Source of the DNA: Nocardia ninae NBRC 108245
GTDB lineage: Bacteria > Actinomycetota > Actinomycetes > Mycobacteriales > Mycobacteriaceae
Assembly (NCBI RefSeq): GCF_007990755.1
Contig: NZ_BJXA01000080.1
Span: forward strand, 1-40,742
DNA: 40,742 nt
Reading direction: 5' to 3'
Below, one piece after another: positions 7,090-38,234 of this stretch (within the stretch, counting starts at the first letter, position 1; each line of letters opens with the position of its first letter). The position numbers and the translations under genes are program-made. The notes below the pieces were generated by a model, which was given only the letters and a program-made list of their open reading frames with translations, did not search any database and was not told the origin of the DNA.

Positions 7090-7224
7090 CCGGTCGGTAG
7101 CTCAGCCCTACTGGACAACCGACCAGTTAAGCGATACCTGGAAATTGTTGTAACACTTACCCTTTGACCTGCACCGATGGGTGACCAGTCCCACATAGTG
7201 ATCCGGTCCGGAAGGCTTGCCGGA

Positions 7225-7240: not shown

Positions 7241-7357
7241 ACTGTTTCCTATAAGTCAGGACGAAGGGGTTCCTGCTTTCCAAAATCTCCGCATTCACCG
7301 TTGCATGCCGGATGACTTGTGCGACAACACGGTTCGAATGAAGAGCAGGAGAGGGCG

Positions 7358-20379: not shown

Positions 20380-23300
20380 GTGGCGGGAACGCGGCTGATC
20401 GGCCGAGACCACCCGGCGGCGCTGCTGCGGGAGGCATTGCGCCGCACGGTGTCCAGTCACGGTGGGCTGGTGCTGGTGTCCGGCGAGGCGGGCATCGGGA
20501 AGACGACGCTGGTCACCGAGGTCGTCGGTGAGTTCGACGAGGGCGAGGTGCTGGTACTCACCGCGACGGCCTGGAGCGGCGACGGCACCCCCGGCTTCTG
20601 GCCCTGGGTGCAGGTGTTGCGCGGACTCCGGCGCGCCGCCACCCCTGAGCAGTGGGCCGCCGTCGACGACGCGCTGTCGTTCCTGATCGGTGAGGCGGAA
20701 CAGCCGGACCCTGCGGCCGGGTCGCTGTTCCGGATCGGTGACGCGGTGACCGAGGCGCTCGTTACCGCCAGCGCGCTGCGGCCGGTGTTCGTGGTGATCG
20801 ATGATCTGCACCGGGCCGATCCGGCATCGATCAGGTTGCTGGCTTTCGTCGCCCGGCATTCGTGGTTCGAGCGGCTGGCGATCGTCGGCACCGTGCGCGA
20901 CACCGATATCGACGCAGCACTGCGAAAGGTGTTCGCGGAGTTACTGACCGCCGCAAGAACCATCGAGTTGACGGGTCTGCCGGTCGACGGGGTCGCGGCG
21001 CTGGTCGGCAGCGTGACGGGTGCGTACGCCGACGACGAGGTCGTGCACACGCTGCACAGCTTGTCCGGCGGTAACCCCTTCCTCATCGAGCAGGCCACGC
21101 GCCTGTGGCAGGCGGGCAATCCGCTCGACACCCTGGCTCCTGGTGTGCGGGAAACCCTCGACGCGCGTCTCGAACCGTTGCCTGCGACCGCGATTGACAT
21201 CCTGACGACCGCCGCACTGGTCGGGCGCGAGTTCGCCGCGGCGGTGGTGGCGGCCAGTACCGGGTGCGAAATCGCCGTCGTGCAAGAACAATTGGCCGCA
21301 GCCGTGCGCGCCAGGCTGGTGACCCCACTCCCCAGCGACCGATTCATCTTCGTGCACGATCTGGTCCGCGAGACACTGCGCGCCCGGATCGGCGAGGCGG
21401 AGTCCCGTAAACGCCACGCCGCCATCCTCGCCGCGCTCGAGCAGCTGCCACGGGAGGTCTCCGGGGCGACCCCGCGCGACCTGGCGCAGCATGCCTACAA
21501 CGCCGCCGACGCGATCGACGATGCCCGGACGCTGCGGTATCTGCTCGACGCGGCGGCCGACGCGTGCGGGCGGCTGGCCGCGGGCGAGGTCGCCGAGCAC
21601 TATCGGCACGCGCTCACCCGCATTCCGGCGGATCAGGCCGATCTGCGTGGCACCGTCGGCCTCGGTTTGGCTGCGGCACAAAGTGATTCGGGTGACCTGG
21701 CCGCCGCGCGCCACACCTACGAGGCGTTGCTGACCGCCGCCGGGGCCCGCTCGGCGGCGGAGCTGTTCGCCAGGGCCGCGCTCGGGCTGCACATGCTCGG
21801 CATGCCCGATCCGGAACGGGAGGCACAGCGCGAGATCGAGATCATGGACCAGGCGCACCGGATGCTATTGGCCGAACGCCCGCCCACCGATCCCCTCGCC
21901 GTGCAGGTGCTGGCCGCCGCGACGCGCGTGCGGGTGCATACCGGGCATGCGTTACGCGACGCCACGGATCAGGCGAGTGCCGAAACGCTGCGCCTGGCCC
22001 GGGAATCCGGGGACGACGACGCACTCGCGGCGAGCCTGCTGGCCCGGCACGACGCGATCTGGCGGCCCGGTGCCGCAGGCGACCGACTGCCGCTGGCCGA
22101 CGAGCTCGCCCGCGTCGGCCGCCGCATGCACCGCGACGAGCTCGAATTGCAGGGCCGCCTGTTGCGCTTCGCCGCGCTGCTGGAGCTCGGTGACCCGCGC
22201 GTGCACACCGAGTTGGCCGCGTTCCGCGCGCTGGCGGACCGGGCCCGCCATCCCCGGTTCCGTTTCATCGCGTTGTCGCGAACGGGTGCCCTGGCGATGG
22301 TGAGCGGCCGATTCGCCGACGCACGCACGGCCATCGACGACGCGTACGCCCTCGCGGAACGACTCGGCGAAGTCGATCGGGTGCCGCTCTGGCTCGAACA
22401 GCGTTGGGCCCTAGCCCTGTTCACGGGCGATCTCGCGGAGGCCGGTGCCTTCGTCGACCGTTATCGCGAGATGGCGGGCGAGTACGCGGCGATCGTGGAC
22501 GTGATCACGGCGGCCCGGCGTGGTGATGTCGAGCGGGTTCGGCGCGGCGTCGGCGACCTTCCGGCGCTGTACGAGTTCTATCCCCGGCACTTCCACCCCG
22601 CCATCCTGATCGCGCAGGTGTATGCCGCGCTCGCCCTCGATGACGCTGATCTGCGAGCGGCGGTGCGCGCCAAGCTGGTTCCGCTGGCCGGATGGTGGGC
22701 GGTCGTCGCCGGTGGCGGCGCCGTCTACGGTCCGTACGCCTATTGGCTCGGGCGGGTGGCGGCGGCGGACGGGGACCTCGACGCCGCGGCCGAACATCTC
22801 ACGGCCGCAGCGGATTCGGCACACCGGATGCGGGCGCAGCCGTGGGTCGAGGCCGCGCGGCACCACCTGCGGTTGATTTCACATCGGGAGCCACCGCCGG
22901 TCCGAGCCCCGGTACCGCCGCCGGACAACGAGTTCCGGTTCGACGGCGCGGTGTGGACGCTGCGGTTCGCCGATCGCACTGTCCATCTGCCCGACGCCAA
23001 AGGAATCCGGGATCTGCACGTGCTGCTCGCACATCCGGGACACGACATTCCGTCGCTGGAATTGTTCGGTGCACCCGACGCCGGAACCCAGCACGCGGCA
23101 CAGTCGTTCGGCAGTGATCCCGTGCTCGACGACCGAGCCAAAGCCGAGTACCAGCGGCGACTCAGCACCCTCGACGCCGAGATCGATCGGGCCGTCGAGA
23201 TCGGAAACGATGCTCGCGCTGTCGAACTCGACCAGGAACGGGCCGCATTGCTCGAGGAGCTACGCCGCACAGCGGGCCTGGCCGGACGCACCCGTCAGCT

Positions 23301-23469
23301 CGGCGACGACGCGGAGCGCGCCCGCAAATCCGTCTCCGCCCGGGTCCGCGACACGTTGCGCCGGGTCGATCGGCTGCACCCCGAACTCACCGAACACCTG
23401 CGCGCCGCCGTCTCTCTAGGCCTGCTCTGCCGGTATCAGCCCCACCGCGACATCCGCTGGCGGCTCTGA
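20380..23469 (+). CDS. Large AAA/STAND-type ATPase with TPR-like region and unusual C-terminal domain
   Basis: 1029 residues. The N-terminal ATPase has Walker A GEAGIGKT (35-42) and Walker B VFVVIDDLHRAD (D141/D142), in the manner of LuxR-LAL (MalT-like) regulators. A long helical, TPR-like region runs from about 330 to 840. LAL proteins end in a LuxR helix-turn-helix; this one does not. Its last 180 residues hold instead a block starting VWTLRFADRTVHLPDAKGIR and ending in a helical Arg/Glu-rich segment (SARVRDTLRRVDRLHPELTE). I have seen this block in other actinobacterial ATPases but know no function; it may bind DNA or a partner. Start GTG 20380 directly before the conserved LIGRDHPAALL; ribosome site weak. 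Probably a signal-sensing regulator; target unknown. Confidence 0.8.
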   Translation: MAGTRLIGRDHPAALLREALRRTVSSHGGLVLVSGEAGIGKTTLVTEVVGEFDEGEVLVLTATAWSGDGTPGFWPWVQVLRGLRRAATPEQWAAVDDALSFLIGEAEQPDPAAGSLFRIGDAVTEALVTASALRPVFVVIDDLHRADPASIRLLAFVARHSWFERLAIVGTVRDTDIDAALRKVFAELLTAARTIELTGLPVDGVAALVGSVTGAYADDEVVHTLHSLSGGNPFLIEQATRLWQAGNPLDTLAPGVRETLDARLEPLPATAIDILTTAALVGREFAAAVVAASTGCEIAVVQEQLAAAVRARLVTPLPSDRFIFVHDLVRETLRARIGEAESRKRHAAILAALEQLPREVSGATPRDLAQHAYNAADAIDDARTLRYLLDAAADACGRLAAGEVAEHYRHALTRIPADQADLRGTVGLGLAAAQSDSGDLAAARHTYEALLTAAGARSAAELFARAALGLHMLGMPDPEREAQREIEIMDQAHRMLLAERPPTDPLAVQVLAAATRVRVHTGHALRDATDQASAETLRLARESGDDDALAASLLARHDAIWRPGAAGDRLPLADELARVGRRMHRDELELQGRLLRFAALLELGDPRVHTELAAFRALADRARHPRFRFIALSRTGALAMVSGRFADARTAIDDAYALAERLGEVDRVPLWLEQRWALALFTGDLAEAGAFVDRYREMAGEYAAIVDVITAARRGDVERVRRGVGDLPALYEFYPRHFHPAILIAQVYAALALDDADLRAAVRAKLVPLAGWWAVVAGGGAVYGPYAYWLGRVAAADGDLDAAAEHLTAAADSAHRMRAQPWVEAARHHLRLISHREPPPVRAPVPPPDNEFRFDGAVWTLRFADRTVHLPDAKGIRDLHVLLAHPGHDIPSLELFGAPDAGTQHAAQSFGSDPVLDDRAKAEYQRRLSTLDAEIDRAVEIGNDARAVELDQERAALLEELRRTAGLAGRTRQLGDDAERARKSVSARVRDTLRRVDRLHPELTEHLRAAVSLGLLCRYQPHRDIRWRL

Positions 23470-25421: not shown

Positions 25422-26306
25422 TCAGGCCTGCACCGGAGCGGGCGCTGCCGCGGATGCCCACACCGCGTCGCGGCAGCGCTGCCTGGCCCGGCCGATCCCC
25501 TCGATCTCGACCTCCACCACGTCACCGTCGCGCAGGTACGGATAACGACCGGAAAGTGCCACGCCCGCAGGGGTTCCGGTGTTGATGATGTCGCCGGGTT
25601 CGAGCACCGCGTACTGGGACAGATGCCAGACCAGGTAGTCGACGCCGAAGATGAGGTCGGCGGTACTGGAGTCCTGACGGGGCTCGCCGTTCACGAAAGA
25701 ACGCAAGCGCAGGTTGCCCGCATCGAGCCGGTCGCGCGGCACCAGCGCGGGGCCGAGCGGGTTGAAGGTCTCGCAGCACTTGCCTTTCGACCACTGGCCG
25801 CCCGACTGTTCGAGCTGGAACGCACGCTCGGAGACATCGTTCGAGATGGTGTACCCCGCAATGTGATTCGGCGCGTCTTCGACCGAGTCGAGATAGCGGG
25901 CCCGCCGGCCGATCACCACCGCGAGTTCCACCTCCCAGTCCGTTTTCGCGGAGTCGCGCGGGATCAGCACGTCGTCGTAGGGGCCGACCACCGTGTTCGG
26001 CGTCTTGAAGAACACGACGGGCGTCTGCGGCGGCGCCGAGCCCGATTCGGCGGCGTGCGCGGCGTAGTTCATGCCGACGCACCACAGCGCCTGCGGCCGC
26101 GCGATCGGGGCGCCGATGCGCTGTCCGGCGATGTCGATGCGGGGAAGCCGGTCCGCCGCAAGCGCTTCGGCGACGGCCGCGATGCCGCCCGCGGCGAGGA
26201 AGTCGCCGTCGATGTCGCCGGTGAGCGCGCGCAGGTCGTAGGCGTGCTCGCCGTCGACGACGATCGGCCGCTCCGCGCCCACTTCGCCGATACGCTGCAA
26301 CTTCAT
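25422..26306 (-). CDS. FAH-fold hydrolase, probable 2,4-diketo-3-deoxy-L-fuconate hydrolase
   Basis: 294 residues of the fumarylacetoacetate hydrolase family. Metal ligands are visible: E125 and E127 in [11 protein letters not shown] and D157 in [13 protein letters not shown]; the catalytic-dyad His84 lies in [10 protein letters not shown]. In the non-phosphorylative fucose pathway this fold cleaves 2,4-diketo-3-deoxy-L-fuconate to pyruvate and L-lactate, the last step before central metabolism. The assignment rests on the neighbours: its ATG overlaps the lactonase stop (ATGA, 26303-26306), and dehydratase, SDR and lactate dehydrogenase lie in the same cluster. ATG 26306 has GAAGGAG 7 bp upstream. 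Related enzymes act on fumarylpyruvate or ureidoglycolate, so the exact substrate is inferred. Confidence 0.85.
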
Positions 26307-27193
26307 TCGGGTTCTCCTTCGGTCATCCAGGTCGGTGCGAGCGGTAGTTGGTAAGTGCGCCAGGCGACTTCGGTCAGCACCTGGATGCGGTCGGCGGGCG
26401 CGAGGTGGGCGAGGGTGTCCAGCGTGGTCCGCCACACGGTCCGGTACGACGCGGCGGTGAGCGTGAACGGCCAGTCACCGCCGACCATCAGCCGTCCGGG
26501 ACCGAATACCGCCAGTGCGTGGTCGACGTAGGGCTGCCACGCTTTCGCGCTGATCTCCGGGCCGGAAACCGTGGCCAGACCGGAGATCTTGGCGACCACA
26601 TTCGGCTGCGCGGCCGCTTCGGTGAGCAGGTCGGCCCAAGGCTGCCAGTCACCGGTCGCGATCGGCGGTTTGCCCAGATGGTCCAGCACGATGGTCAGTT
26701 CGGGGTGTGCCCGCGCGATTACCGGCACCTGCGCGAGCAGATCAGGTCGTTCGGCGACCGCGTCGAAAACGAGCCCTGCCTCGGCCAGTTGCGCGAGACC
26801 CGCCGAAACCTCGGGCCGCAGCAACCATTTCGGGTCCGGATCGCGGTGGATCATGTGCCGGACGCCGACGAACTCGGGATGGGCGCGTAGCGCGGGCAGT
26901 TCGGCGGCGACGACCTCGGGCCGGTGCAGCGGCAGCCAGCCGACCACGGCCGCAGGGTGCGGCGTCGCCGTCGCGGCGGCCAGCAGCGCGCGATTCTCGG
27001 CCAGTGAATCGGCGGCCTGCACCAGCACGACCGCGCCGACCCCGTGCGCCGACAGCTCCGGCTCGATATCCGGTAGCGCGTAGTTTCGGTGCAAAACATC
27101 GGATGTTTCGGTCAGCCAGTCGTACTCGACGCCGAATTCTCCGCCGTCTACCCGCCAAACATGAACATGTGAGTCTACAGTCATCGGAGGCAT
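26303..27193 (-). CDS. Amidohydrolase-2 family lactonase, probable L-fuconolactonase
   Basis: 296 residues. TIM-barrel amidohydrolase of the COG3618 type: the N-terminal metal motif [10 protein letters not shown] (H9, H11), [28 protein letters not shown] and MVGGDWPFT at the ends of the strands. Members open sugar 1,5-lactones; beside L-fuconate dehydratase this is best read as L-fuconolactonase, turning L-fucono-1,5-lactone into L-fuconate in the cytoplasm. ATG 27193 is chosen (GAGG 10 bp upstream); ATG 27184 is possible. The start lies only 31 bp from the divergent gntR start, so promoters of both genes overlap each other's coding ends. One cluster palindrome (27094-27108) falls inside its first 35 codons. 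Confidence 0.87.
27094..27108. promoter_or_regulatory. GntR-type operator copy 1 in fucose cluster
   Basis: AAACATCGGATGTTT, a perfect 15-bp odd palindrome containing the core ACATCGGATGT also found at 34147-34157 and (imperfect) 34255-34267. It is 85-100 bp inside the lactonase gene and about 117 bp upstream of gntR, so it could control either gene. Confidence 0.7.
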
Positions 27194-27224
27194 ACGTTCA
27201 CATCCTCGAGGGCGAAGGAAACAG

Positions 27225-27893
27225 GTGTCGGTTACCGACGACGCGATAGCGAAGATCAAGGCGATGATCATCTCGGGCGATCTGGAGCCGGGCGCGCGAC
27301 TGCCCCGCGAGGCGGACCTCGCCGCGCAGCTCGGCGTTTCGCGCAACTCGCTGCGGGAGGCGGTCCGCGCACTCTCGCTGGTCCGGATCCTGGACGTCCG
27401 GCAGGGCGACGGCACCTACGTGGCCAGCCTGGAGCCGAAGTCGCTGCTCGACGCGATGAGCTTCCTGCTCGAATTCCACCAGGACGACTCGGTTCTCGAC
27501 ATTCTCGCCATCCGGCGCATCCTCGAACCCGCCGCCACCGCACTCGCCGCACGCGCGATGCCCGAGGACCAGATCGCGCATCTGCGCACCCTGGTCGAGC
27601 CCGAGACGTCGTCGGTGACCGAGCTGGTGACGCTGGACCTCGAGTTCCACGCCGCCATCGCCGCCGCCTCCGGCAACAAAGTGCTTGCCTCCCTGCTGGA
27701 GTCGCTGTCGCTGCCGACCATGCGGGCCAGGATCTGGCGCGGCATCACCGAGGAGCGCGCGTTCGAGCGCACCGTTGCTGAGCACCGCGGCATCTGCGAC
27801 GCGATCGCCGCCCACGATCCCGAACTCGCGCACGCCAGGGCCCTGGCCCATGTGGCGGGTGTCATGGAGTGGCTGCGCCGCGCCGCCGGCTGA
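27225..27893 (+). CDS. FadR-subfamily GntR regulator, probable regulator of the fucose cluster
   Basis: 222 residues. The N-terminal GntR winged helix (about 1-70) has [21 protein letters not shown] and [25 protein letters not shown]; the C-terminal FCD domain (about 75-215) has [14 protein letters not shown] and EHRGICDAI with the His/Asp residues that hold the metal and a sugar-acid effector in many FCD proteins. Start GTG 27225 with GAAGG 5 bp upstream. It lies between the two minus-strand fucose transcripts and within reach of three copies of the palindrome ACATCGGATGT, the size and symmetry FadR-type proteins use. I infer repression relieved by L-fuconate, its keto-deoxy derivative or a similar acid. 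Confidence 0.9.
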
Positions 27894-27907
27894 GCGCTGA
27901 CGGCCGA

Positions 27908-28822
27908 TCACAGGCACCGGTCCAGTTCGTACCAGAGGTCTTCCGGCACTGTCGTATTCAGCATCGCGATGGTGTCTGCGACCTCCGCCGCAGTGCCCGC
28001 GCCGATGACAGTGGCGGCGACCGCCGGGTTGCGCCGGGCGAACTGCAATGCCGCCGCCCGCAGCGCGACATCGTATTTCGCGCAGATCCGCGCCATCGCC
28101 TGTGCCCGTTCGACGATCTGCTGCTGCGCGGGCCGATAGTCGAAAGTCGTTCTGTGCCAAGGATCAGCCAGAATTCCGCTGTTCAGCACACCGGCGACCA
28201 GCACGCGCACGTCCCGGCGGGCGCACTCCGGGAGTAGCTCGGCTTCGGCCCGCCGGTCCAGCAACGTATACCGGCCGGCGATCAGCACGTGGTCGATGCT
28301 GGTTTCCCGTACGAAGCGCAGTGCGACATCCGCGTCGTTGACGCCGACGCCGATCGCGGAGACGATCCCTGCGGCGCGCATCCGCGCCAATTCGGGCACT
28401 GCCTCGGCAAGGGCCTGCTCCTGGTAGTCGTCCGGGTCGTGGATCAGCAGCAGATCGACCCGATCCAGGCCGAGGCGCTCCAGCGAGTCCTCCAGTGAAC
28501 GCCGCACGCCCGCAGCCGAATAGTCGCGGCAGCGTGCGCGTTTCGGTGCGCCGTAGAAGTCATCGACACCATCGGGTGCGAGCGGGTCCTCGTAGAGCAG
28601 CCGCCCCACTTTTGTCGATACCGTGTACTCGGAGCGCGACCGTAGGAACCGGCCGAGACGTTCCTCGCTGCTGCCCGCGCCGTAGTGTGGCGCGGTGTCG
28701 AAGGCGCGGATGCCCGCGTCCCACGCGGCCGCGATGCCCGCTTGGGCTTCGGCCTCGCCGACCGTGCGGAACAGGCCCGCGTAACCCGCGCCGCCGAGGA
28801 CGATGTCGGCTACGTCATTCAT
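27908..28822 (-). CDS. Aldo/keto reductase, probable L-fucose dehydrogenase
   Basis: 304 residues. AKR barrel with the tetrad Asp42 and Tyr47 (FDTAPHYGAGSSEERLG), Lys71 (VSTKVGR) and His128 (LLLIHDPDD). The DTAPHYGAG box is that of D-threo-aldose 1-dehydrogenases, which oxidise L-fucose, L-galactose or D-arabinose at C1 with NAD(P) to the 1,5-lactone. It is the last gene of the six-gene operon and supplies the substrate for the divergent-coded lactonase. ATG 28822 lies 8 bp inside the mutarotase coding end; an in-frame GTG at 28831 would add three residues, but GGCGGGTGACG fits the ATG better. Stop is 14 bp from the convergent gntR stop. Confidence 0.87.
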   Translation of the reverse strand: MNDVADIVLGGAGYAGLFRTVGEAEAQAGIAAAWDAGIRAFDTAPHYGAGSSEERLGRFLRSRSEYTVSTKVGRLLYEDPLAPDGVDDFYGAPKRARCRDYSAAGVRRSLEDSLERLGLDRVDLLLIHDPDDYQEQALAEAVPELARMRAAGIVSAIGVGVNDADVALRFVRETSIDHVLIAGRYTLLDRRAEAELLPECARRDVRVLVAGVLNSGILADPWHRTTFDYRPAQQQIVERAQAMARICAKYDVALRAAALQFARRNPAVAATVIGAGTAAEVADTIAMLNTTVPEDLWYELDRCL

Positions 28823-29150
28823 CGGCGTCACCCGCCGGATTCAGCTCCCACACCACCGGCAGGGTCGCGGCGGCTCCCGTCGCCGAGTAGTCGTGCGTCC
28901 CTTCCAGGTACTCGTTGATCTGCAACTGCAACGCCACGTTGACAGGCAACTCAGCCAACTGGCTGAGCAGCAAATCATAGGCGGCACAGTCGATCACGTG
29001 GAACAGGTCGGTGCCACTGCGCCAAATCGTCCAGGAGGTGGCCCCGGCGTCCTTGATGGCCGCGACGAGTTCGGCCGGCACCGCCCGGTGTGCCGCCTCG
29101 TAAGCTGCCTCGGCCCCGGGTTTCAGCTTGGTGTGCAACGCGATTCGCAC
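28815..29150 (-). CDS. RhaM-family sugar mutarotase (L-fucose/L-rhamnose mutarotase type)
   Basis: 111 residues, the normal size of the COG3254 (DUF718) dimeric alpha+beta barrel. Markers: RIALHTKLKPGAEAAYEAAH at the start, SWTIWRSGTDLFHVIDC in the middle and PVVWELN at the end, with a conserved His22 and His52-type pocket. It speeds interchange of alpha and beta sugar anomers, giving the dehydrogenase the form it oxidises. GTG 29150 is preferred because AGGAG sits 6 bp before it; GTG 29156, overlapping the permease stop, would add two residues. Its family name is rhamnose mutarotase, but such genes are found in fucose clusters too. Confidence 0.88.
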   Translation of the reverse strand: MRIALHTKLKPGAEAAYEAAHRAVPAELVAAIKDAGATSWTIWRSGTDLFHVIDCAAYDLLLSQLAELPVNVALQLQINEYLEGTHDYSATGAAATLPVVWELNPAGDADE

Positions 29151-29152
29151 GC

Positions 29153-30184
29153 TCACTCCTGCCGTCGTCCGCTGGCGATGCGAGTGATCACCAGGGCCAC
29201 CAGGATCAGCGCGCCGTTGATGAACTTGAGCGAGTCGGCGCTGACGCCACCGTAGGACAGCAGCTTTTGAATCAACGTCAGGATCAGCACACCGAAGAAC
29301 GCGCCGAGCACCGAACCCCGCCCGCCGTTGAGCGCCACTCCGCCGATCACACAGGCGGCGAACACCTGGAAGATCATCCCGTCACCCTGGCTGACCTGCA
29401 CGCTGGCGAACTGCCCCGAGTAGATGAGCCCGCCGACCGCGGCGAGCCCACCCGCCACGACCAGCACGGCGATAACGACGTGATCGGTGCGGATACCAGC
29501 GGCCCGCGCGGCGGCCTCGTTGCCACCGACGGCGTAGAGGGCACGGCCGGCCGTCGTATAGGTGAGGACGAAATAGCCGAGGGCAAACAAGGCCAGACAG
29601 ACTGCCACGTCCACCGGCACGCCCACTATGTCGGTGTTGCCGAGCCATTCGACCGACGGCGGAATCTTGGTCAGCGTGAACCCTTCGGTGAGGAAGGTCA
29701 GCAGTCCGCGCAAGGCGATGAGCATCGCCAGGGTGACGATGAAGCCGTTCAAGCCGAACCGGACGATCAGCACGCCGTTGAGCGCGCCGACGGCGAGACC
29801 GACGAGCAGCGCGATTGGAATCGCCATCCACGGCGAGGTCCAGGTGTAGGCGCCCACCTTCGCGGTGCCCATGGTCGCCCAGATGGCGACGCCGGGAGCG
29901 AGCCCGAAGGTCGATTCCAGCGACAGGTCCATCCGGCCGACCACCAGCACCAGCACCTCGGCCAGCACGATGAGCGCGATTCCGCTCATCGCGGTCAGCA
30001 CATTGGTGAGGTTGGCCGAGGAGACGAAGTTGCTGTTGATGAAGTAGCCGACCACCAGGACCAGCAGGATCGGCGGCACGAGCAGGAAGTCGCGTAGCGC
30101 ACCCCAGCGCACCGTCCCCGGCCACCGCCGGGTCGCGGGGGACGCGCTGGTCGCGGGTTCGCGCCCGGTAGCGATCGGGATCAT
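29153..30184 (-). CDS. Sugar ABC transporter permease (CUT2, RbsC-like)
   Basis: 343 residues with about nine to ten membrane helices (for example LLVPPILLVLVVGYF, IALIVLAEVLVLVVG, IPIALLVGLAVGALNGVLIV, VVIAVLVVAGGLAAVGGLIY). CUT2 signatures include VGRMDLSLESTFGL, NGFIVTLAMLIALRGL, GRALYAVGGNEAAARAAGI and GGVALNGGRGSVLGA, the last being the loop that couples to the ATPase. It forms the homodimeric membrane channel for the sugar. The ATG at 30184 overlaps the ATPase stop (ATGA) and its own stop overlaps or abuts the mutarotase start. A single permease gene is the rule for CUT2 systems. Confidence 0.93.
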   Translation of the reverse strand: MIPIATGREPATSASPATRRWPGTVRWGALRDFLLVPPILLVLVVGYFINSNFVSSANLTNVLTAMSGIALIVLAEVLVLVVGRMDLSLESTFGLAPGVAIWATMGTAKVGAYTWTSPWMAIPIALLVGLAVGALNGVLIVRFGLNGFIVTLAMLIALRGLLTFLTEGFTLTKIPPSVEWLGNTDIVGVPVDVAVCLALFALGYFVLTYTTAGRALYAVGGNEAAARAAGIRTDHVVIAVLVVAGGLAAVGGLIYSGQFASVQVSQGDGMIFQVFAACVIGGVALNGGRGSVLGAFFGVLILTLIQKLLSYGGVSADSLKFINGALILVALVITRIASGRRQE

Positions 30185-31677
30185 GACAGTCCTTCCATCG
30201 CGGCGACGAGTTCTTTGTCGCCCCAGCCTTTCTCGAATTCCCGCGCGATCCGGCCCTGCACCATCACCAGTACCCGGTCGCAGTCGCGCAGATCGTCGAG
30301 TTCGTCCGACACCACCAGGACGGCGGTGCCGCGGTCGGCGGCGTCGCGCACGACACCGCGCAGGGTTTCCTTCGACCGCACGTCGACACCCGCCGTCGGC
30401 GTGATCAGCACCAGCACGGCGGGGTCGGTGGCCAGCGCGCGAGCGAAGACCACCTTCTGCTGGTTGCCACCCGACAGCTCGGCGACGCTCTGGTCCGGGC
30501 CCTCGGTCTTGATGCCCAGGTCGCCGATGGCTTTGCCCGCCACCGCGTTCCGGGTGCGCCGGGACAGCAGCCCGAGGCGCCCCAGCCGGCGTGGCACGGT
30601 CAGCGTGGCGTTGTCGGCGACGCTCATCTCCGGGATCAGCCCCTCCTCGTGCCGGTCCCGCGGCACGAAGCCGATGCCGGCGTCGAGCGCGGCACGAACA
30701 CCGTTGCGGTGCAGCCGGTTCCCGGAGACGAAGACGGAGCCGGTGGCCGCCTTGCGGAGTCCGACAATGGTTTCGGCGACCTCGATCCGGCCGCTGCTGC
30801 CACCACCCGCGAGGCCGGCGATCTCCCCCGGCCCGACCGACAACGTCACGTCGGCGAATTCGCCTGCCCGCGAGAGTCCGTCGACCCGCAGCGTCGGTGC
30901 GTCCGCAGCCACGGGATCGCGCCGCGCGGCCGGCGTCGCGAGTTCGACCGAATCGCCGGTCATCGCCGCGACGAGCGCCTTCTTGCCGAGCTCGGCGACC
31001 GGCGCGGTCACCACGTGTCTGGCGTCCCGGAAAACGGTGATGTCCTGGCAGATTTCGTAGGTCTCATCGAGGTGATGGGAGATGAACAGGAAGGTGACGC
31101 CCTGCTTTTGGAGGTCGGTGATCCTGCTGAACAATCGTTTGATCGCAGGTCCGTCGAGCTGGGCGGTCGGCTCGTCCAGGATGATGAAACGCGCACCGTG
31201 CGAGAGGGAACGCGCGATCTCCACCAGCTGCCGATGCTCGACGGACAGATCGCGGGCGACGGTGTCGACATCGACCGGCACCGACCAGGTGTCGAGCAGC
31301 TCGCGCGCCCGGCCACGGACTCTGCGCCAGTTGATGATTCGGCCGCCGAACCCCTGACTGTTGACGAACAGGTTCTCCGCCACCGACAGTTCGGGAATGA
31401 TCGTCGACTTCTGATACACGCACGCCACCCGGGAGCGCCAGGCGTCCCGGTCGGCCGGCGAGGGCGCCGGAACTCCGTTGAACCGCACCTCCCCCGCGTC
31501 GGGCGTGGTGAGTCCGGTCAGGATCGATACCAGGGTCGATTTTCCGGCACCGTTGCGGCCGACCAGCGCGTGCGTCCGGCCCGCCGCCACCCGGAGCCCC
31601 ACCTTGTCGAGCGCGATCACATTGCGGCCGAAGCGTTTCGACACGTCGATCGCCTCGGCGATCGGTTCGCCGGTCAT
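30181..31677 (-). CDS. Sugar ABC transporter ATPase with two nucleotide domains, second domain degenerate
   Basis: 498 residues, RbsA/MglA type. The first ATPase is complete: Walker A GRNGAGKST (40-48), signature LSVEHRQL, Walker B FIILDEPTAQLD and switch His in FISHHLDE. The second half starts near 255; its P-loop is AGGGSSGRIEV, the signature LSGGNQQKVVFARAL is normal, but Walker B reads VLVLITPTAGVD, lacking the Asp-Glu pair. In RbsA-type proteins the second P-loop is often weak; loss of Walker B as well means only the first site should hydrolyse ATP. ATG 31677 overlaps the preceding lipoprotein stop. A longer open frame upstream is a shadow. Confidence 0.92.
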   Translation of the reverse strand: MTGEPIAEAIDVSKRFGRNVIALDKVGLRVAAGRTHALVGRNGAGKSTLVSILTGLTTPDAGEVRFNGVPAPSPADRDAWRSRVACVYQKSTIIPELSVAENLFVNSQGFGGRIINWRRVRGRARELLDTWSVPVDVDTVARDLSVEHRQLVEIARSLSHGARFIILDEPTAQLDGPAIKRLFSRITDLQKQGVTFLFISHHLDETYEICQDITVFRDARHVVTAPVAELGKKALVAAMTGDSVELATPAARRDPVAADAPTLRVDGLSRAGEFADVTLSVGPGEIAGLAGGGSSGRIEVAETIVGLRKAATGSVFVSGNRLHRNGVRAALDAGIGFVPRDRHEEGLIPEMSVADNATLTVPRRLGRLGLLSRRTRNAVAGKAIGDLGIKTEGPDQSVAELSGGNQQKVVFARALATDPAVLVLITPTAGVDVRSKETLRGVVRDAADRGTAVLVVSDELDDLRDCDRVLVMVQGRIAREFEKGWGDKELVAAMEGLS

Positions 31678-32771
31678 CCGCCGTGACCCCACAGGCCGGG
31701 CGCGGAGGTACTCAGCGTGTCGAGTTCGCCTACCTTGCCGCCGGTTCGGGTGACCACCGGGGCGGGCAGCTGATCTTCGAGGGTCCCGCCGACGCCGGTG
31801 TCGATGATCGTGGACCCGTGGTCGGTGGGTCCCGGGGTGAACTTGCGGCCGTCGACGGCGGCCTTGGCATAGAAGGTCGCGTATTGCGCGTACAGGTCGG
31901 CGGGCTGGGAAATGGTGGCGTCGATCTCGCCGGCTTCGATGGCGTCCAGCTCGGCCTTGATGCCGTCGTTGGACACGATCGTGATGTGGCCCGGCGCACC
32001 GGCTTTCACCAGTTTGTCGCTGCGCCGCAGCAAAGCCAGGGTCGACTGCAGGAACACGCCGCCCGCCTGCATGTAGATGCCGTTGATGTCGGGATCGGTC
32101 AGTAGTTTGTCCTGGAGGCCCGAGACGGCCCGATCGCCCTTCCAGTCGGTCGGGATCTCGATCACCTTGATGCCTGGATACCGCGTCTTCATGCACTCGG
32201 CGAACGCTTCGGACCGATCGCGTCCGTTGATCGAACTCAGATCACCTTGGAATTCGACGACTTTGCCGGTGCCCTTCAAGGTTTCGCCGAGGTAGATACA
32301 CGACTTGGTGCCGTAGGCGCGGTTGTCCGCCCGCACCACCATGTACACCCCGCCGCTGTCGGGCCGGGTGTCGACGCTGACCACCGGCACATTCTTGGCG
32401 GCCGCCGCGGCGAGGGCGGGCTTGACCGCGGCGGTGTCCTGCGGGGCCATGATGAGCGCCTTCACGTTCTTGGACAGCAAAGTGTCGACGTTCGACTTGA
32501 GCCGGTTGGCGTCGTTGTCGGAGGAGGTGTTCTCCAGCTTCACCCCCGCGGCAGCGGCTTTCGGTCCCAGATAACCCGCGTAGGCGCTCCAGAAGTCGGA
32601 GTCCGAGCGGGGTTGATCGGCACCGACGAGGACGCCGTTGTCCGCGCCGCTACCAACGGTGACGGCGGGTGCGCTGTCACCGGTGCCGGTGGGTTCCCTG
32701 GTACACGCGGCGCCCGCGGAAATGATCAGGGTCGCGCCGAGGGCTACGCCGATGATGCTGGCGGTTTTCAT
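31674..32771 (-). CDS. Sugar-binding lipoprotein of the ABC transporter
   Basis: 365 residues. Signal peptide with hydrophobic [15 protein letters not shown] and lipobox ending at Cys23 (GAACT), then a Gly/Ser/Thr-rich linker. The mature part is a periplasmic-binding-protein type I fold (RbsB class): [65 protein letters not shown] and [16 protein letters not shown]. The Asp/Arg residues in SINGRDRSE and the VSND pair are where sugar is held in this family. It captures the sugar outside the membrane and delivers it to the permease. ATG 32771 has CAGGAG upstream and overlaps the dehydratase stop (ATGA). Confidence 0.92.
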
Positions 32772-34105
32772 GAGTTCTCCTGCGGTTGGAACGAGCGGGC
32801 TTGCGGATCCGCCTGCCACGCGGCGCCGGACGGATAGGTGTAGTCGCGCAGCGACGCGGGTAGCATCTCGGCGCTGAAACCGGGCTCACGCGGTGCTAGA
32901 TAACGGCCGCCGACCACGCGCACGGGATGACGGAAATGCTCGTGCAGGTGGTCCACGAACTCGATCGCGCGGTCCTCGGTGGTGCCGGTGATCGCCACGT
33001 AATCGATCATCGCGAGATGCTGGACCAGCTCACAGAGACCGACGCCGCCCGCGTGCGGCACCACCGGCACACCGAACTTGGCCGCCAGCAACAGGATTGC
33101 CAGGTTCTCGTTGACACCGGCGACCCTGGCCGCGTCGATCTGCACGAGGTCGACGGCCCCGGCCTGCAACAGCTGCTTGAACAAGATCCGGTTCTGCCCG
33201 TGCTCGCCGGTCGAGATGCGCACCGGCGCGACGCGGCGGCGGATCGCGGCGTGGCCGAGGATGTCGTCCGGGCTGGTCGGCTCCTCGATCCAGGCCGGAT
33301 TCGCCGACGCGAGCCGGGAGATCCAGTCCACCGCGACGTCGACGTCCCAGCGCTGGTTCGCGTCGACCGCCAGTCCGATGTCGGGTCCGATCGCCTCCCT
33401 GGCGACCTTGACCCGGCGCACGTCCTCGTCCACGTCGCGGCCGACCTTGATCTTGATGGTGCCGAAACCGTCGGCCACCGCCTGCCTGGCCAGCCGGGCG
33501 AGCTTCTCGTCGGAGTAGCCGAGCCAGCCCGGCGAGGTCGTGTATGCCGGATACCCGGTGTCCAGTAGCCGAGCGATGCGCTCCTGCCTGCCCGGTTCGG
33601 CACGGCGCAGGATCGCCAGCGCCTCGCCGGGGGTGAGCGCATCGGTGAGGTAGCGGAAGTCGATGAGGTCGGCGATCTCCTCGGGGGACATCTCGGCGAC
33701 CAACTGCCACACCGGTTTTCCGGCGAGTTTCGCTGCGAGATCCCAGGCGGCGTTGATCACGGCACCGACCGCCATGTGCATGACGCCCTTTTCCGGACCG
33801 AGCCAGCGCAGCTGGGAATCGGCGGTGAGGGATCTGGCGAATCCTCCGAGGTTCCCGGCGATTTCGGCCACCGATCGCCCGACTACCAAGTGCGCCAGCG
33901 ATTCGATGGCGACGCGCTGCACATCATTACCGCGGCCGATGGTGAACGCGAAGCCGTGGCCCTGCGGGCCCGCCGGATCGTCGGTGCGCAGGATCACGTA
34001 GGCCGCCGAATAATCGGGGTCGGGATTCATCGCGTCCGAGCCGTCCAGCTCGCGCGAGGTCGGGAACCGGACGTCTAACGTGTCCAGCGCCGTGAGGTGC
34101 GCCAT
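32768..34105 (-). CDS. L-fuconate dehydratase (enolase superfamily)
   Basis: 445 residues. It removes water from L-fuconate to give 2-keto-3-deoxy-L-fuconate in the cytoplasm, needing Mg2+. Sequence marks are strong: the N-terminal [19 protein letters not shown] and the [19 protein letters not shown] block seen in Xanthomonas FucD and human ENOSF1, not in rhamnonate dehydratases. Active-site set: K218 and K220 (TIKIKVG), Mg ligands D248 (VDANQRW), E274 (IEEPTSP), E301 (STGEHGQNR) and the base H351. These numbers coincide with those I recall for Xanthomonas FucD. ATG 34105 has GAGGAT 6 bp upstream. First gene of the six-gene operon, expressed from the operator-covered promoter at 34142-34169. 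Confidence 0.95.
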
Positions 34106-34141
34106 GGGTGATCCTCGTTCCAGATAGTGATCTGGGTCACG

Positions 34142-34169
34142 ACTATACATCGGATGTCTGCTTGCGCAA
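34142..34169 (-). promoter_or_regulatory. Promoter of the six-gene fucose operon
   Basis: On the minus strand TTGCGC (34164-34169) and TATAGT (34142-34147) are separated by 16 bp, a near-standard sigma-70-type layout. The predicted start of transcription is about 30 bp before the dehydratase ATG. The operator core lies within the spacer and touches the -10. Confidence 0.6.
34147..34157. promoter_or_regulatory. GntR-type operator copy 2, inside the operon promoter
   Basis: ACATCGGATGT, perfect 11-bp odd palindrome, in the spacer of the promoter that reads toward the dehydratase. A bound repressor here would shut RNA polymerase out. Confidence 0.75.
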
Positions 34170-34254
34170 TGGGAGATGGAAAATCCGTCAATCCTGGTTG
34201 CGCAGTGGCAATCTCGCGCGAATACCCGCGATCGGTGTTATGTTCGCCAGTGTT

Positions 34255-34267
34255 AAACATCGGATCT
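34255..34267. promoter_or_regulatory. GntR-type operator copy 3, toward the SDR-lldD transcript
   Basis: AAACATCGGATCT matches copy 1 over AAACATCGGAT and differs at one core base (C for G). It is 49 bp before the SDR start and just after a possible -10 (TATGTT, 34239-34244), about 108 bp from copy 2. Confidence 0.6.
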
Positions 34268-34315
34268 GTCCGGGTCGAGCTATCGCACCGGAACCGAGGT
34301 GAGAAGGTGGGCGGT

Positions 34316-35092
34316 ATGTCGGTAAAAAGCACGTTCGACGGGCTGGTAGCAGTGGTCACCGGTGGTGCGTCCGGCATCGGAATGGCCGTCACCGAGACCT
34401 TGGCGGCGGCAGGCGCGCGAGTGGCGGTGCTCGATCTGCACCCTGGCAACACCCCGGGGATCGCCCTGCGCTGCGATGTCGCCGATGACGAATCAGTCCG
34501 CAATGCCATCGCGGGCGTCGTCGACAAGTACGGCCGGCTCGACATCCTCGTCAACAACGCGGGCATCGGCGCACAGGGCACCATCGCCGACCACACCGAC
34601 GACGAGTGGCGGCGGGTGTTCGAGGTCAATGTCCTGGGCACGGTGCGCGTTTCCCGCGCCGCGCTCCCCCACCTGCGCCGGTCACCGGCCGCCGCGATCG
34701 TGAACATCTGCTCGATCGCGGCCACCACCGGGCTGCCGGATCGCGCCGTCTACAGCGCGAGCAAAGGGGCGATCCTGTCGCTGACGCGCGCGATGGCCGC
34801 CGACCACCTCCACGACGGCATCCGAGTGAACTGCGTCAATCCGGGGACCGTCGACACGCCCTGGGTGCAGCGGCTGCTGGCGAGCAGCGCGGATCCCGGC
34901 GCGGAAATGGCCGCGCTGCAAGCACGGCAGCCGCACGGGCGTCTCGTCACCGCCGCGGAAGTCGCGAGCGCGGTGGCGTATCTGGCCGGACCGGCGGCGT
35001 CGTCCATCACCGCAACGATGCTGGAGGTCGACGGCGGCATGCATTCACTACGCCTGCGGGCGGCGGCACAGGTCGCTGGGGCGCACCGATGA
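34316..35092 (+). CDS. SDR dehydrogenase, probable 2-keto-3-deoxy-L-fuconate dehydrogenase
   Basis: 258 residues, classical SDR. Cofactor motif TGGASGIG (15-22), an Asp after the second strand (VLDLHPG) that favours NAD, NNAG, the catalytic Ser in NICSIAA and the YxxxK pair in [11 protein letters not shown]. In the fucose pathway this enzyme oxidises 2-keto-3-deoxy-L-fuconate at C4 to the 2,4-diketo acid. Function is taken from cluster logic plus family, since SDR sequence alone does not fix the substrate. ATG 34316 has GAAGGTGG upstream. It starts the plus-strand transcript away from the dehydratase and is coupled to the lactate dehydrogenase gene by an ATGA overlap (35089-35092). Confidence 0.87.
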
Positions 35093-36321
35093 CCGCGCGC
35101 CGGGTGCCCCGACCGCGAGACCTCGCACCGCTGGTCAAATTCGAGCGGCCGTTCGGCGGCCGGGAGCGCAAACTGGCTCGCGCACAGACGATCTGGGACG
35201 TGCGTGAGCTGGCCCGCAAACGTACTCCCAAGGTCGCGTTCGATTACACCGACGGCGCGGCCGATGCGGAGATCAGCCTCGCCCGCGCCCGGGAGGCGTT
35301 CGCCGACATCGAGTTCCGGCCCGCGATCCTGCGCGACGTCAGCAGTGCCGACACCACGGTTCAGGTACTCGGTAAAACGGCCGCGCTGCCCTTCGGTATC
35401 GCGCCGACCGGGTTCACCAGGATGATGCACACGGCGGGCGAGCTGGCGGGGGCGCGCGCCGCCGAACGCGCGGGCATCCCGTTCACGCTGTCCACCATGG
35501 GGACGACCGCCATCGAGGATGTCGCCGCGGGCACCGGACCGAACGCGCGCCATTGGTTTCAGCTGTACATGTGGACCGATCGAGACCGTTCCCTGGCGCT
35601 GGTCGAGCGCGCCGCACGGGCCGGCTTCGACACGCTCGTCGTCACGGTCGATGTGCCGGTAGCGGGGGCCCGGCTGCGCGACGTCCGCAACGGCATGACG
35701 GTGCCGCCCTCGATCACGCTGAGCGGCGCGGTGGATGCGCTGCGCAGGCCATGGTGGTGGTGGGACCTCCTCACCACCGAACCGTTGGCCTTCGCATCGC
35801 TGGACCGCTGGTCGGGGACGGTCGCCGAGCTGCTCGATGCCATGTTCGACCCGACCGTCGGCTTCGATGATCTGGCCTGGATCAGGGCGCAATGGCCGGG
35901 CAAGCTGCTGGTGAAGGGCGTGCAGACGGTCGATGACGCCAAACGCCTGGCCGGGCTCGGCGTCGACGGCATCATCCTGTCGAATCACGGTGGGCGGCAA
36001 TTGGATCGCGCACCGGTACCGCTGCACCTGCTGCCCGCGGTGGTGCGCGAGGTGGGCGATGACCTGGAAGTCCACCTCGACACCGGCATCATGCACGGCG
36101 CCGACATCGTCGCCGCTCTCGCACACGGCGCGCGGTTCACCCTCGTCGGCCGGGCCTACCTGTACGGGCTGATGGCCGGCGGCGAGGCGGGCGTGGACCG
36201 CACGATCGAGATTCTCCGTACCCAGATCGTGCGGACCATGAAGCTGCTCGGCGTCGGCTCGGTCGAGGAGCTCGAGCCGGGGCATGTGCGCCTGCTCGAG
36301 CGGTACCGCCCGCGAGAATAG
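35089..36321 (+). CDS. lldD: FMN-dependent L-lactate dehydrogenase (LldD-like)
   Basis: 410 residues, alpha-hydroxy-acid oxidase/dehydrogenase family. Markers: [14 protein letters not shown] at the start, [14 protein letters not shown] (FMN phosphate side), [33 protein letters not shown] and the catalytic His300 in SNHGGRQLD, then [11 protein letters not shown] and GRAYLYGLM. It oxidises L-lactate to pyruvate, passing electrons to the quinone pool or to oxygen. The lactate would come from the diketo acid hydrolase of the same cluster, so this gene completes the route to pyruvate. Translationally coupled to the SDR. The stop is 2 bp from the convergent DapB-like gene. Mycobacteria use a related enzyme for lactate growth; other hydroxy acids cannot be excluded. 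Confidence 0.9.
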
Positions 36322-36323: not shown

Positions 36324-37391
36324 TTAGCGCTGTGCGGGTTTCGTGATCAGCGGCAGATCCAAGGCGGTCAGGATTCCGGCGGGCGCTCGAACTACGGCGG
36401 GGATCGCGTTGACGATGCGCATGGCGGTGGCGAGCAGGGTGGCGTGGTTGTGGTCGCCGTTGCGGCTCGACGTGACCAGATCCATTGCGTAACTGGGTTC
36501 GCCGGTGATCTCGACCCGATACGAGCCCTCGTGGTGGGCCGGTTGCGGCCAGTCCGGGCAGAGGTCGGGGTGCAGCCGGGTGACGTGCTCCAGGACCGTG
36601 ACGGGCTCTGCGCCGACCATGCCGCGCACCTCGAAACGCAGGGCAGCTGCGGTGCCCTCGGCGATGTGGCCGGTGGCGATGTCGAAGGAGCGGTCGGCCG
36701 GAATCCGCTGGTAGGTCTCGGTGACCGCGTCGAGAGTGACACCGATGCCCGCGGCGAGCTGGCGCACGGTGCCGCCCCAGGCGAGCGACAACACACCGGG
36801 CTGGAGCAGCATCGGGATGTCGTCCAGTGGTTTACCGAAACCCATGATGTCGAACATGACTTCGCGGTTGTCGTAGCTGGCGTAGTCCACGATCTCTATG
36901 CAGCGCAGCTGATCGATGCGCAGGCAGGTGCCCGCGAGCGCCAGCGGCAGTAGGTCGTTTGCGAAACCCGGATCGATGCCATTGACCCACAGCGACGCAT
37001 TGCCTTGTGCCGCAGCCTCTTGCACCGGCTTCAGCAGATCGTCGGGCAGGACGCCGTAGGGGTATTGGAAGAACACCGGGGCGCAGGCGACGACATTGAT
37101 TCCGGCGCTGAGGATTCGCCGCAGGTCGGCGAGGGCCTCCATCAGACGGTTGTCGGTCATCGAGCAGTAGACGACGCAGTCGGGTCGGGCCGCGAGGATC
37201 GCGTCGGTATCCATCGATGCGGCGACGCCTACCGGATCATCCAGTCCCGCAAGGGTTCCCGCGTCGATACCGTCCTTGGCCGGGCCCGATACCCAGACGC
37301 CGGCCAGCTCGAGGTCGGGGTTGGCGATGACACCTGCCAGGGCATGTTTGCCGACATTGCCGGTGCCCCACTGCACTACGCGATAGGTCAT
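36324..37391 (-). CDS. DapB-like NAD(P)-binding dehydrogenase (Rv0926c type)
   Basis: 355 residues. The N-terminus is a Rossmann segment of the dihydrodipicolinate reductase type (VVQWGTGNVGKHALAGV), followed by CVVYCSMTDNRLMEAL and a long C-terminal part with GIDPGFANDLLPLAL and GSYRVEITGEPSYAMDL. This arrangement is that of actinobacterial DapB-like proteins of unknown substrate; I recall a mycobacterial neighbour pair (Rv0926c beside the SDR Rv0927c) with the same order. It lacks the rest of the lysine pathway, so real DapB function is unlikely. ATG 37391 is 1 bp after the SDR stop on the minus strand, so the two are one operon. The reaction is unknown. Confidence 0.8.
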   Translation of the reverse strand: MTYRVVQWGTGNVGKHALAGVIANPDLELAGVWVSGPAKDGIDAGTLAGLDDPVGVAASMDTDAILAARPDCVVYCSMTDNRLMEALADLRRILSAGINVVACAPVFFQYPYGVLPDDLLKPVQEAAAQGNASLWVNGIDPGFANDLLPLALAGTCLRIDQLRCIEIVDYASYDNREVMFDIMGFGKPLDDIPMLLQPGVLSLAWGGTVRQLAAGIGVTLDAVTETYQRIPADRSFDIATGHIAEGTAAALRFEVRGMVGAEPVTVLEHVTRLHPDLCPDWPQPAHHEGSYRVEITGEPSYAMDLVTSSRNGDHNHATLLATAMRIVNAIPAVVRAPAGILTALDLPLITKPAQR

Positions 37392-37392
37392 G

Positions 37393-38184
37393 TCACAGGT
37401 CCCCGATCGGGAGGTCGAGGTTGGGGGCGATCAGGCCGCCGTCGGGTTCGAGCACCTTGCCGGTGAGGTACTTGCCCGCCGGGGAGACCAGGTAGAGCGC
37501 GGCTGCGGCAATGTCTTCGGGTTCACCGAGGCGGTGCAGCGGCGTCTTGGTTTCGAGTTCGGTACGCATCGCATCGTTGCTCGCGACGATCTCCAGCGCT
37601 GAGGTCAGGATCGAGCCGGGGGCAATGGCATTCACCCGGATGCGCGGGTTCAGGTCCAGTGCAGCGAGTTTGGTGTAGTGCGCCAACGCGGCTTTGGCGG
37701 TGCCGTACGCCGCGAACGCGCGGCCGGGCAACCGGCCCATGGTCGAGGTGACGTTGAGAATCGAACCGCCACCGGCGGTTTCGAGGATGTGCGGCACCGC
37801 CGCGCGGACGAGTGCGTGCGCGTTGGTGACATTGAAGTTGAACGCGTCCACCAGGGCCTGCGGGGTGGTGTCGAGCAGGGGGCACGGCATCGCGCCGCCG
37901 ACATTGTTGACCACGATGTCCAACCGGCCGAAGCGCTCCACCGCGATACCGGCCAGTGCCGCGGTCGCCTCGATATCGCTCAGGTCCGCCGGGACCACAT
38001 GCGCCTGGCGTCCAGCTGCGGTCACCCTTGCGGCTACCTCGTCCAATTGACTCTTGGTGCGCGAGGCGATGACGACGTCCGCGCCAGCCTCCGCGAAGGC
38101 GACCGCAATCGCGGCACCCAGGCCACGGCCTGCACCGGTCACCACGGCGACCTGTCCGTCTATGCGGAATCGATCCAGAATCAT
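37393..38184 (-). CDS. SDR-family oxidoreductase
   Basis: 263 residues, classical SDR with all catalytic parts: TGAGRGLG in the cofactor loop, SRTK after the second strand (favours NADP), NNVGG, the Ser in NVTSTMGR and the YxxxK pair in [13 protein letters not shown]. The tail ends [12 protein letters not shown] 38184 is chosen because GGAG lies 6 bp upstream and [17 protein letters not shown] is the conserved start; the open frame 5' covers the operator region. First gene of the two-gene operon with the DapB-like protein, divergent from an IclR regulator 129 bp away. Substrate unknown. Confidence 0.88.
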
Positions 38185-38234
38185 TCGCGCTCCATCCGCG
38201 CCGTAGACAACTCCCGCCGATCCCATCGGCCAGG

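Follow-up and report, generated by a model that had tools for sequence, protein, structure and literature searches.

A candidate block for L-fucose import and non-phosphorylative breakdown in Nocardia ninae, including a putative L-lactate dehydrogenase

The window, that is, the whole 40,742-nucleotide stretch analysed here, is one contig (C80) of the 9.7 Mb, 204-contig genome of Nocardia ninae NBRC 108245. Positions 25422-36321 hold a compact block of genes that, judging from their contents and arrangement, are most likely devoted to the import and non-phosphorylative breakdown of L-fucose and are apparently co-regulated. The genes are listed below; all Pfam matches of their products are above the gathering score. 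ATP-binding cassette, aldo-keto reductase, short-chain dehydrogenase/reductase, flavin mononucleotide and 2-keto-3-deoxy-L-fuconate are abbreviated as ABC, AKR, SDR, FMN and KDF.

32768..34105, minus strand: fucD, putative L-fuconate dehydratase of the enolase superfamily, 445 amino acids (1YEY, 702 bits)
31674..32771, minus strand: CUT2 sugar-binding protein (Peripla_BP_4, 147 bits), with a lipoprotein-like signal by eye
30181..31677, minus strand: CUT2 ABC ATPase, 498 amino acids (ABC_tran, 158 bits, two stretches; start and open frame checked)
29153..30184, minus strand: CUT2 permease (BPD_transp_2, 129 bits)
28815..29150, minus strand: RhaM-type (PF05336) mutarotase with a GTG start (rhaM, 56 bits, cut-off 23.4; an alternative GTG by eye at 29156)
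27908..28822, minus strand: AKR, proposed L-fucose 1-dehydrogenase (Aldo_ket_red, 166 bits)
27225..27893, plus strand: GntR/FCD regulator, proposed FucR (GntR, 67 bits; FCD, 83 bits)
26303..27184, minus strand: COG3618-type lactonase, proposed L-fucono-1,5-lactonase (Amidohydro_2, 129 bits)
25422..26306, minus strand: FAH-fold hydrolase, proposed L-2,4-diketo-3-deoxyfuconate hydrolase (FAA_hydrolase, 233 bits)
34316..35092, plus strand: SDR, proposed L-2-keto-3-deoxyfuconate 4-dehydrogenase (adh_short_C2, 196 bits; S133/Y146/K150)
35089..36321, plus strand: lldD, FMN-dependent L-2-hydroxyacid (proposed L-lactate) dehydrogenase (FMN_dh, 433 bits)

On the minus strand, fucD is followed by the genes for the binding protein, ATPase, permease, mutarotase and AKR, with ends that overlap or lie near each other. 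The GntR/FCD gene faces the AKR gene from the plus strand, and the lactonase and FAH-type hydrolase genes diverge from it at a distance of 40 bases. The SDR gene and lldD diverge from fucD on the plus strand, the start of lldD overlapping the stop of the SDR gene. All genes named in a preliminary description of this DNA were recovered in place by Pfam and NCBIfam profile matches, and candidates for each step of the route that it had drawn (dehydrogenase, lactonase, dehydratase, KDF dehydrogenase and diketo-acid hydrolase) are indeed encoded together. lldD lies inside the range given there and is missing from its gene list.

The best solved relative of FucD is the L-fuconate dehydratase of Xanthomonas campestris (1YEY, matched over residues 4-436); human ENOSF1 scores 535 bits, the MR_MLE_C profile 211 bits, and identity to a Xanthomonas sp. 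FucD is 72%. The residues K218, K220, D248, E274, E301 and H351, which had been pointed out before, are all present and, with N250, are invariant in 12 aligned FucD sequences (numbering from the start at 34105). The AKR has L-galactose dehydrogenases as its best solved relatives (80-90 bits), and its motifs hold D42, Y47, K71 and H128, which we take to be the tetrad of this family. LldD passes the PF01070 gathering score and has an SNHGGRQ motif whose H300 and R303 are presumably catalytic; it scores 269 bits with the curated model NF033901 (under the cut-off of 550) and 306 bits with PRK11197 (under the cut-off of 376). The lactonase finds NF052480 (L-fucono-1,5-lactonase) as its best NCBIfam model, at 170 bits (under the cut-off of 400), and 4DLF as its best solved relative, at 101 bits. 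For the FAH-fold hydrolase the best NCBIfam model is NF053535 (2,4-didehydro-3-deoxy-L-rhamnonate hydrolase; 238 bits, under the cut-off of 500), with 209 bits to 1GTT over two domains and 181 bits to 8GSR, an L-2,4-diketo-3-deoxyrhamnonate hydrolase equal in size. Fucose and rhamnose routes converge on this diketo acid, as the stereocentre at C4 is lost in the dehydrogenase step (PMC11199699). The binding protein resembles ribose/allose-type binding proteins, from which no sugar can be predicted, and the best NCBIfam models of the ATPase, YtfR and AraG, are both below cut-off.

From these genes we infer the following substrates and reactions. The CUT2 importer would take up L-fucose, and the mutarotase would equilibrate its anomers. 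The AKR would oxidise the sugar to L-fuconolactone, the lactonase would open this to L-fuconate, and FucD would dehydrate it to 2-keto-3-deoxy-L-fuconate. The SDR would then oxidise C4, and the FAH-fold hydrolase would cleave the resulting diketo acid into pyruvate and L-lactate. Since LldD would convert the L-lactate into a second pyruvate, the six carbons would end as two pyruvates. It is quite probable, in our view, that the block is an inducible, self-contained L-fucose module of the non-phosphorylative route III kind. The L-fucose-to-pyruvate route of the preliminary description finds backing in gene content, synteny, catalytic residues and the SDR ligand pattern, and the lactate dehydrogenase adds the lactate end.

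The gene fucD was found in 22 of 150 Nocardia genomes (E 1e-60), in 14 of 301 genomes of a family sample (E 1e-100) and in 98 of 394 genomes of a class sample of Actinomycetia (E 1e-120), the N. ninae genome being counted each time. Named bearers in the genus are N. tenerifensis, N. vulneris, N. macrotermitis, N. pseudobrasiliensis and N. colli, and among the matches listed, 592 of the 599 fucD pattern matches in named genomes encode relatives. A search of further Nocardia for the gene set, as had been proposed, showed that the block order is kept in the 21 other fucD-positive genomes: SDR, AKR and GntR genes are found in all 21, the three ABC genes in 20, lldD in 20, the lactonase gene in 20 (the miss is at a contig end), the FAH gene in 18 (one of the three misses is at a contig end) and a mutarotase match in 15. 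The cluster is therefore not a chance assembly. In one of these genomes (G032, locus L036) fucD abuts the mutarotase gene.

Among the best 80 named loci, five of them from Nocardia, the AKR is present in 72, the SDR in 67, the lactonase in 62, the FAH hydrolase in 34 and LldD in eight (four Nocardia and four Xanthomonadales). The genes for AKR, lactonase, SDR, FAH hydrolase and FucD stand in a row in all eight Xanthomonadales loci, two of which are from Xanthomonas. In a quick fucD tree of 102 rows, 97 of them different, Nocardia and Xanthomonadales fall together on one side and the other actinobacteria on the other (SH-aLRT 98, midpoint root). Horizontal transfer of fucD from Xanthomonadales is not claimed here, as the midpoint-rooted split is also compatible with Xanthomonadales as an outgroup.

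The keto-acid step is assigned from the SDR ligand pattern. R143, T178 and R204 are shared by all 22 Nocardia rows (from 21 genomes, one of them represented twice), by the 52 readable sequences among 53 other actinobacterial SDRs of at least 50% identity, and by all eight Xanthomonadales SDRs. R186 fills the place of the third arginine after a one-residue gap and so completes the R-T-R-R of characterised L-KDF dehydrogenases. In an alignment of 13 SDRs, the pattern R-T-R-R was found in 8/8 actinobacterial sequences of the same type and 4/4 Xanthomonadales sequences, the remaining one (L112) being of another kind. Mutants show that this pattern matters in L-KDF dehydrogenase (PMC11199699), and the spacing in the Xanthomonadales SDRs fits the published Thr183, Leu189, Arg192, Phe211, Arg214 and Gln215. 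Met242 occupies the position at which Trp252 of L-KDF dehydrogenase (L-KDFDH) packs the C6 methyl; the published W252M mutant retained 1800 of 7900 min-1 mM-1. The best solved match (170 bits) is 4DQX, described as near type 2 L-KDF dehydrogenase (PMC11199699). For type 1 enzymes the same paper gives more than 50% sequence similarity to known members as a mark, a measure different from the 33-38% identity found here to the SDRs of Xanthomonadales clusters. This pattern supports a reading of the window SDR as a KDF dehydrogenase of a distant branch.

The lactate end is indicated by the distribution of LldD. An orthologue of at least 82% identity is present in 21 of the 22 fucD-positive Nocardia genomes and in one of the 128 fucD-negative ones, and the four other long FMN_dh matches in the N. 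ninae genome are just 33-35% identical to LldD. Twenty fucD-negative Nocardia genomes have an LldD match of E 1e-100 or better, and all 20 loci were inspected. In 14 of them a relative (69-71%) closes the 3' end of a rhaI-rhaEW-rhaB operon, starting at, or a few bases from, the end of rhaB (L099 4372-10255 and 13 loci among L204-L218, one of the 14 holding lldD in part, at a contig end). For one of these loci, the curated cut-offs are passed by the rhaI and rhaEW products but not by the kinase. The rhamnose route yields L-lactate by oxidation of L-lactaldehyde, and lldD belongs to RhaR regulons of Actinomycetales (PMC3870299). In Luteibacter and three Dyella, an LldD of 42-45% identity comes next after fucD, 34-327 bases away as measured between alignment ends. 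The co-occurrence with fucD, the lineage in rha operons and the Luteibacter and Dyella genes make L-lactate and a 6-deoxyhexose likely, so that, as far as gene context tells, L-lactate is the probable second product and L-fucose, rather than D-arabinose, the probable sugar. The 82% LldD of one fucD-negative genome (G092; L097 8913-10124) is encoded downstream of the arginine-biosynthesis genes argD and argR.

Candidate control sites lie in the fucD-SDR intergenic region and in the lactonase gene:

34147..34157, either strand: predicted operator, the palindrome ACATCGGATGT, within the promoter of fucD; of 22 Nocardia, 21 have it exactly and one with a single mismatch
34142..34147, minus strand: -10-like TATAGT of fucD, in 22 of 22 Nocardia, its first base being the last operator base
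34164-34169, minus strand: -35-like TTGCGC of fucD, read in the window only, 16 bases before TATAGT
34127..34140, minus strand: GTGA-N6-TCAC site, in 22 of 22 Nocardia
34257..34267, either strand: second predicted operator copy ACATCGGATCT on the SDR-lldD side, one mismatch, with the core TCCGATGTTT in 22 of 22 Nocardia
27096..27106, either strand: third predicted copy of the operator, in the 5' part of the lactonase coding region, where 20 of 21 lactonase genes have it exactly

The genome has four matches to the pattern ACATCSGATGT, two of which fall in this cluster, and none to the reversed-pattern control. The two other exact sites, one immediately 5' of the longest PhoD-like phosphatase frame and one within the 3' end of an isochorismatase-family frame, are not obviously fucose-related. 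At the site inside the lactonase gene, the threonine codon is ACA in 21 of 21 genes; it is one of four columns with a fixed A or T at the third base among 118 invariant-residue columns, and of the remaining three, none is found beyond codon 5 of the translated stretch. Among 75 named non-Nocardia loci (the five named Nocardia loci were left out), exact sites were found in 11 of 20 with a GntR of at least 55% identity versus two of 55 without (Fisher p 2e-6, relatedness ignored). When one mismatch was allowed, the counts were 20 of 20 versus 17 of 55, and eight of the 11 loci have their exact site 19-49 bases ahead of the GntR gene. A text search of the literature for the two spellings of the palindrome yielded, among the papers listed, no title on bacterial gene regulation. 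The best NCBIfam model of the regulator is LldR, at 106 bits (cut-off 311). We infer a pairing of this protein with these sites and negative control: the GntR/FCD protein would repress the fucD-ABC-mutarotase-AKR, SDR-lldD and lactonase-FAH units through ACATCSGATGT-type sites. The copy before fucD sits between the -35-like and -10-like elements and is followed by the GTGA-N6-TCAC site, which we take to be Crp/GlxR-like from its consensus.

A broader proposal is tentative, and we regard it as slightly more apt to fail than to hold. In Nocardia, two deoxyhexose routes that are not related to each other may be completed by FMN L-lactate dehydrogenases of one lineage, used as an exchangeable final unit: some species have it at the end of the phosphorylative rhamnose operon, others in the oxidative fucose block under GntR control. 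Where it serves fucose, all of the sugar would become two pyruvates, and a flavoenzyme would hand on the final electrons; a single GntR/FCD operator code, of which one copy lies within a coding gene, and a Crp-type site would govern the set.

Several observations weigh against the assignment to L-fucose or against parts of it. No enzyme of the block attains an NCBIfam equivalog cut-off, so every substrate name rests on context, and the AKR and SDR belong to large promiscuous families. The SDR is just 33-38% identical to the SDRs of Xanthomonadales clusters. It scores higher with human 17-beta-HSD14 (HSD17B14; 140 bits) than with the solved L-KDFDH 8XWK (125 bits), and ten actinobacterial SDRs of less than 50% identity near fucD are without R143 and T178. 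A mutarotase match is absent in six of the 21 relatives. The block of G032 is without the FAH hydrolase and CUT2 importer, that of G008 without the FAH hydrolase, and the FAH genes elsewhere in these two genomes are paralogues of 39-49% identity only (41-42% in G032). The N. macrotermitis block has no lldD. Six of the 20 fucD-negative genomes have no rha genes beside LldD; two of them, G092 (82%) and G126 (77%), keep this LldD with neither fucD nor adjacent rha genes, and the other four have relatives of 70-72%. The operator-GntR association is confounded by shared descent, and a profile search found no gene for glycoside hydrolase family 29 (GH29) in the N. ninae genome.

One rival sugar is D-arabinose, derived for example from the cell's own arabinan: the same enzymes would turn it into pyruvate and glycolate, and the FMN enzyme would be a glycolate oxidase. 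L-fucose 1-dehydrogenases (PMC6336799) and L-KDFDH (PMC11199699) accept D-arabinose-derived substrates too, and D-arabinose is a mycobacterial wall sugar (PMC10115798, PMC10509167). However, in 14 of the 20 fucD-negative genomes LldD of this lineage comes last in an L-rhamnose operon, whose hydroxyacid is L-lactate; fucD is confined to 22 of the 150 Nocardia; and the SDR has the hydrophobic Met242 at the C6-methyl packing position, which is still compatible with a pentose substrate. A separate candidate locus for D-arabinan or D-arabinose lies on contig C73. The sole PF07881 match of the genome is found there, in a protein with three FucI Pfam domains that scores 93 bits with the FucI equivalog, below its cut-off of 775. 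It belongs to an apparent operon (L096 = C73:27000-43000, at 1995-8489) of a FucI-family isomerase, an FGGY kinase, a DUF2961/GH172-type protein and a XylB-type kinase. DUF2961 is GH172, for which exo-D-arabinofuranosidase activity is on record, and from these families the operon is possibly a phosphorylative D-arabinan/D-arabinose route. The earlier statement that isomerase and kinase are lacking thus stands for the cluster and fails for the genome. FucI-family isomerases were found in 67 of 150 Nocardia, with no clear link to fucD (13/22 vs 54/128, p 0.17). Both the rhamnose-operon context of the LldD lineage and the separate locus on C73 make D-arabinose the less likely main substrate, and we consider this rival improbable.

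Another possibility is that the main substrate is L-galactose, L-galactonate or a further sugar with this stereochemistry, fucose being incidental. The relationship of the AKR to L-galactose dehydrogenases suits it, and the lactonase-dehydratase-SDR-hydrolase chemistry would be identical; but FucD is near a characterised L-fuconate dehydratase, and the product would be glycerate, a poor fit to the LldD lineage, so that we judge it very unlikely. It would also be conceivable that the role of L-fucose 1-dehydrogenase belongs to the SDR instead of the AKR, the keto-acid step being left to another protein, as SDR-type L-fucose dehydrogenases exist (HSD17B14, PMC11293516; 140 bits with the window SDR). 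This exchange of roles seems extremely unlikely to us in view of the R143/T178/R186/R204 pattern, the AKR in the same cluster and the SDR relatives of at least 50% identity near fucD in 53 other actinobacterial loci.

The source of the fucose is another matter. The suggestion in the preliminary description that host or plant fucose could be used has little behind it: besides the missing GH29 gene, the N. ninae genome has one GH95 match, of 28.7 bits (cut-off 27), covering 95 of 408 positions in a 928-amino-acid frame. A GH29 search of 148 Nocardia gave matches in 19, among which the fucD-positive ones are G007 and G069 only, both weak (E about 1e-16). No strong GH29 match was found in any fucD-positive genome of this sample, which omits two of the 150 genomes and includes at least 20 of the 22 fucD-positive ones (up to two may be outside). 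If all 22 are taken as covered, the relation between GH29 and fucD is not significant (Fisher p 0.74 for any match, 0.13 for strong ones). The scavenging of fucosylated glycans was accordingly set aside as a role.

Read from its sequence, the block is a well-supported, ordinary and tidy instance of a known pathway, useful and not surprising. The nearest likeness is the operon XCC4065-XCC4070 of Xanthomonas campestris (as described in PMC5080750), with its AKR, lactonase, SDR, FAH-type hydrolase and FucD. Two Xanthomonas sp. loci show identities to the window of 44-45% for the AKR, 35-36% for the lactonase, 33-34% for the SDR, 50% for the FAH hydrolase and 72% for FucD. The window differs from the X. 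campestris operon in its CUT2 importer, RhaM-type mutarotase, GntR/FCD regulator, distant-branch SDR and lldD. Route III of Herbaspirillum huttiense and P. mimosarum is similar in that a KDF dehydrogenase and a diketo-acid hydrolase yield pyruvate and lactate, or glycolate from pentoses (PMC6336799, PMC11199699); the solved H. huttiense SDR shares just 125 bits with the window SDR, and the arginine pattern is common to both. Closer to Nocardia, many fucD clusters of Streptomyces, Micromonospora and other actinobacteria comprise AKR, SDR (53-68% in most of those with this type), lactonase, CUT2 transporter and GntR genes. Unlike the window, the 67 non-Nocardia actinobacterial loci have no LldD match, and their FAH gene is often outside the fetched stretch. 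Ten Streptomyces loci with an SDR2-type match, L112 among them, represent another kind of fucD cluster: their SDR is different, and they have neither an FAH match nor an exact ACATCSGATGT; in L112, the one aligned, the nearest SDR is without R143 and T178.

The preliminary description called this pathway little-described, which does not agree with the 98 fucD-positive Actinomycetia genomes or with the literature, as the non-phosphorylative pathway is in print for Proteobacteria (PMC11199699), Bifidobacterium (PMC5080750) and an acidimicrobiium (PMC12263773). Bifidobacterium likewise has homologues of the dehydrogenase, lactonase and fuconate dehydratase, but there, unlike in the window, the genes are split over two regions, one with fucosidases (PMC5080750); infant bifidobacteria convert L-fucose into 1,2-propanediol (PMC5277004). 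The RhaR regulon of Actinomycetales also extends a deoxyhexose route to pyruvate by lldD, although that route is the phosphorylative one of L-rhamnose (PMC3870299), whereas the window holds the presumed oxidative one of L-fucose. Among the papers listed by a literature search, with most subscription journals outside its reach, there was none on this cluster in Nocardia. According to three species descriptions, L-fucose use is a variable trait in the genus: N. barduliensis, N. asiatica, N. noduli and a comparison strain are positive, and N. gipuzkoensis, N. abscessus and N. alni negative (in one description, the new species were matched to isolate numbers by title order). The block gives a testable gene set for this trait in Nocardia, and the predicted operator and regulator can be tested in many actinobacteria. 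A LldD lineage tied to deoxyhexose catabolism would moreover help to tell L-fucose from D-arabinose routes by genome reading alone.

On the minus strand at 36324-38226, lldD is adjoined by a gene pair for a 2,4-diaminopentanoate-dehydrogenase-like protein (PF19328) and a PRK07814-type SDR. Since the pair is present in just nine of 20 fetched Nocardia loci (one other locus is cut by a contig end), it is probably outside the fucose block. Upstream of the block, positions 20380-23469 contain a frame of 1029 amino acids with an AAA_16 ATPase domain.

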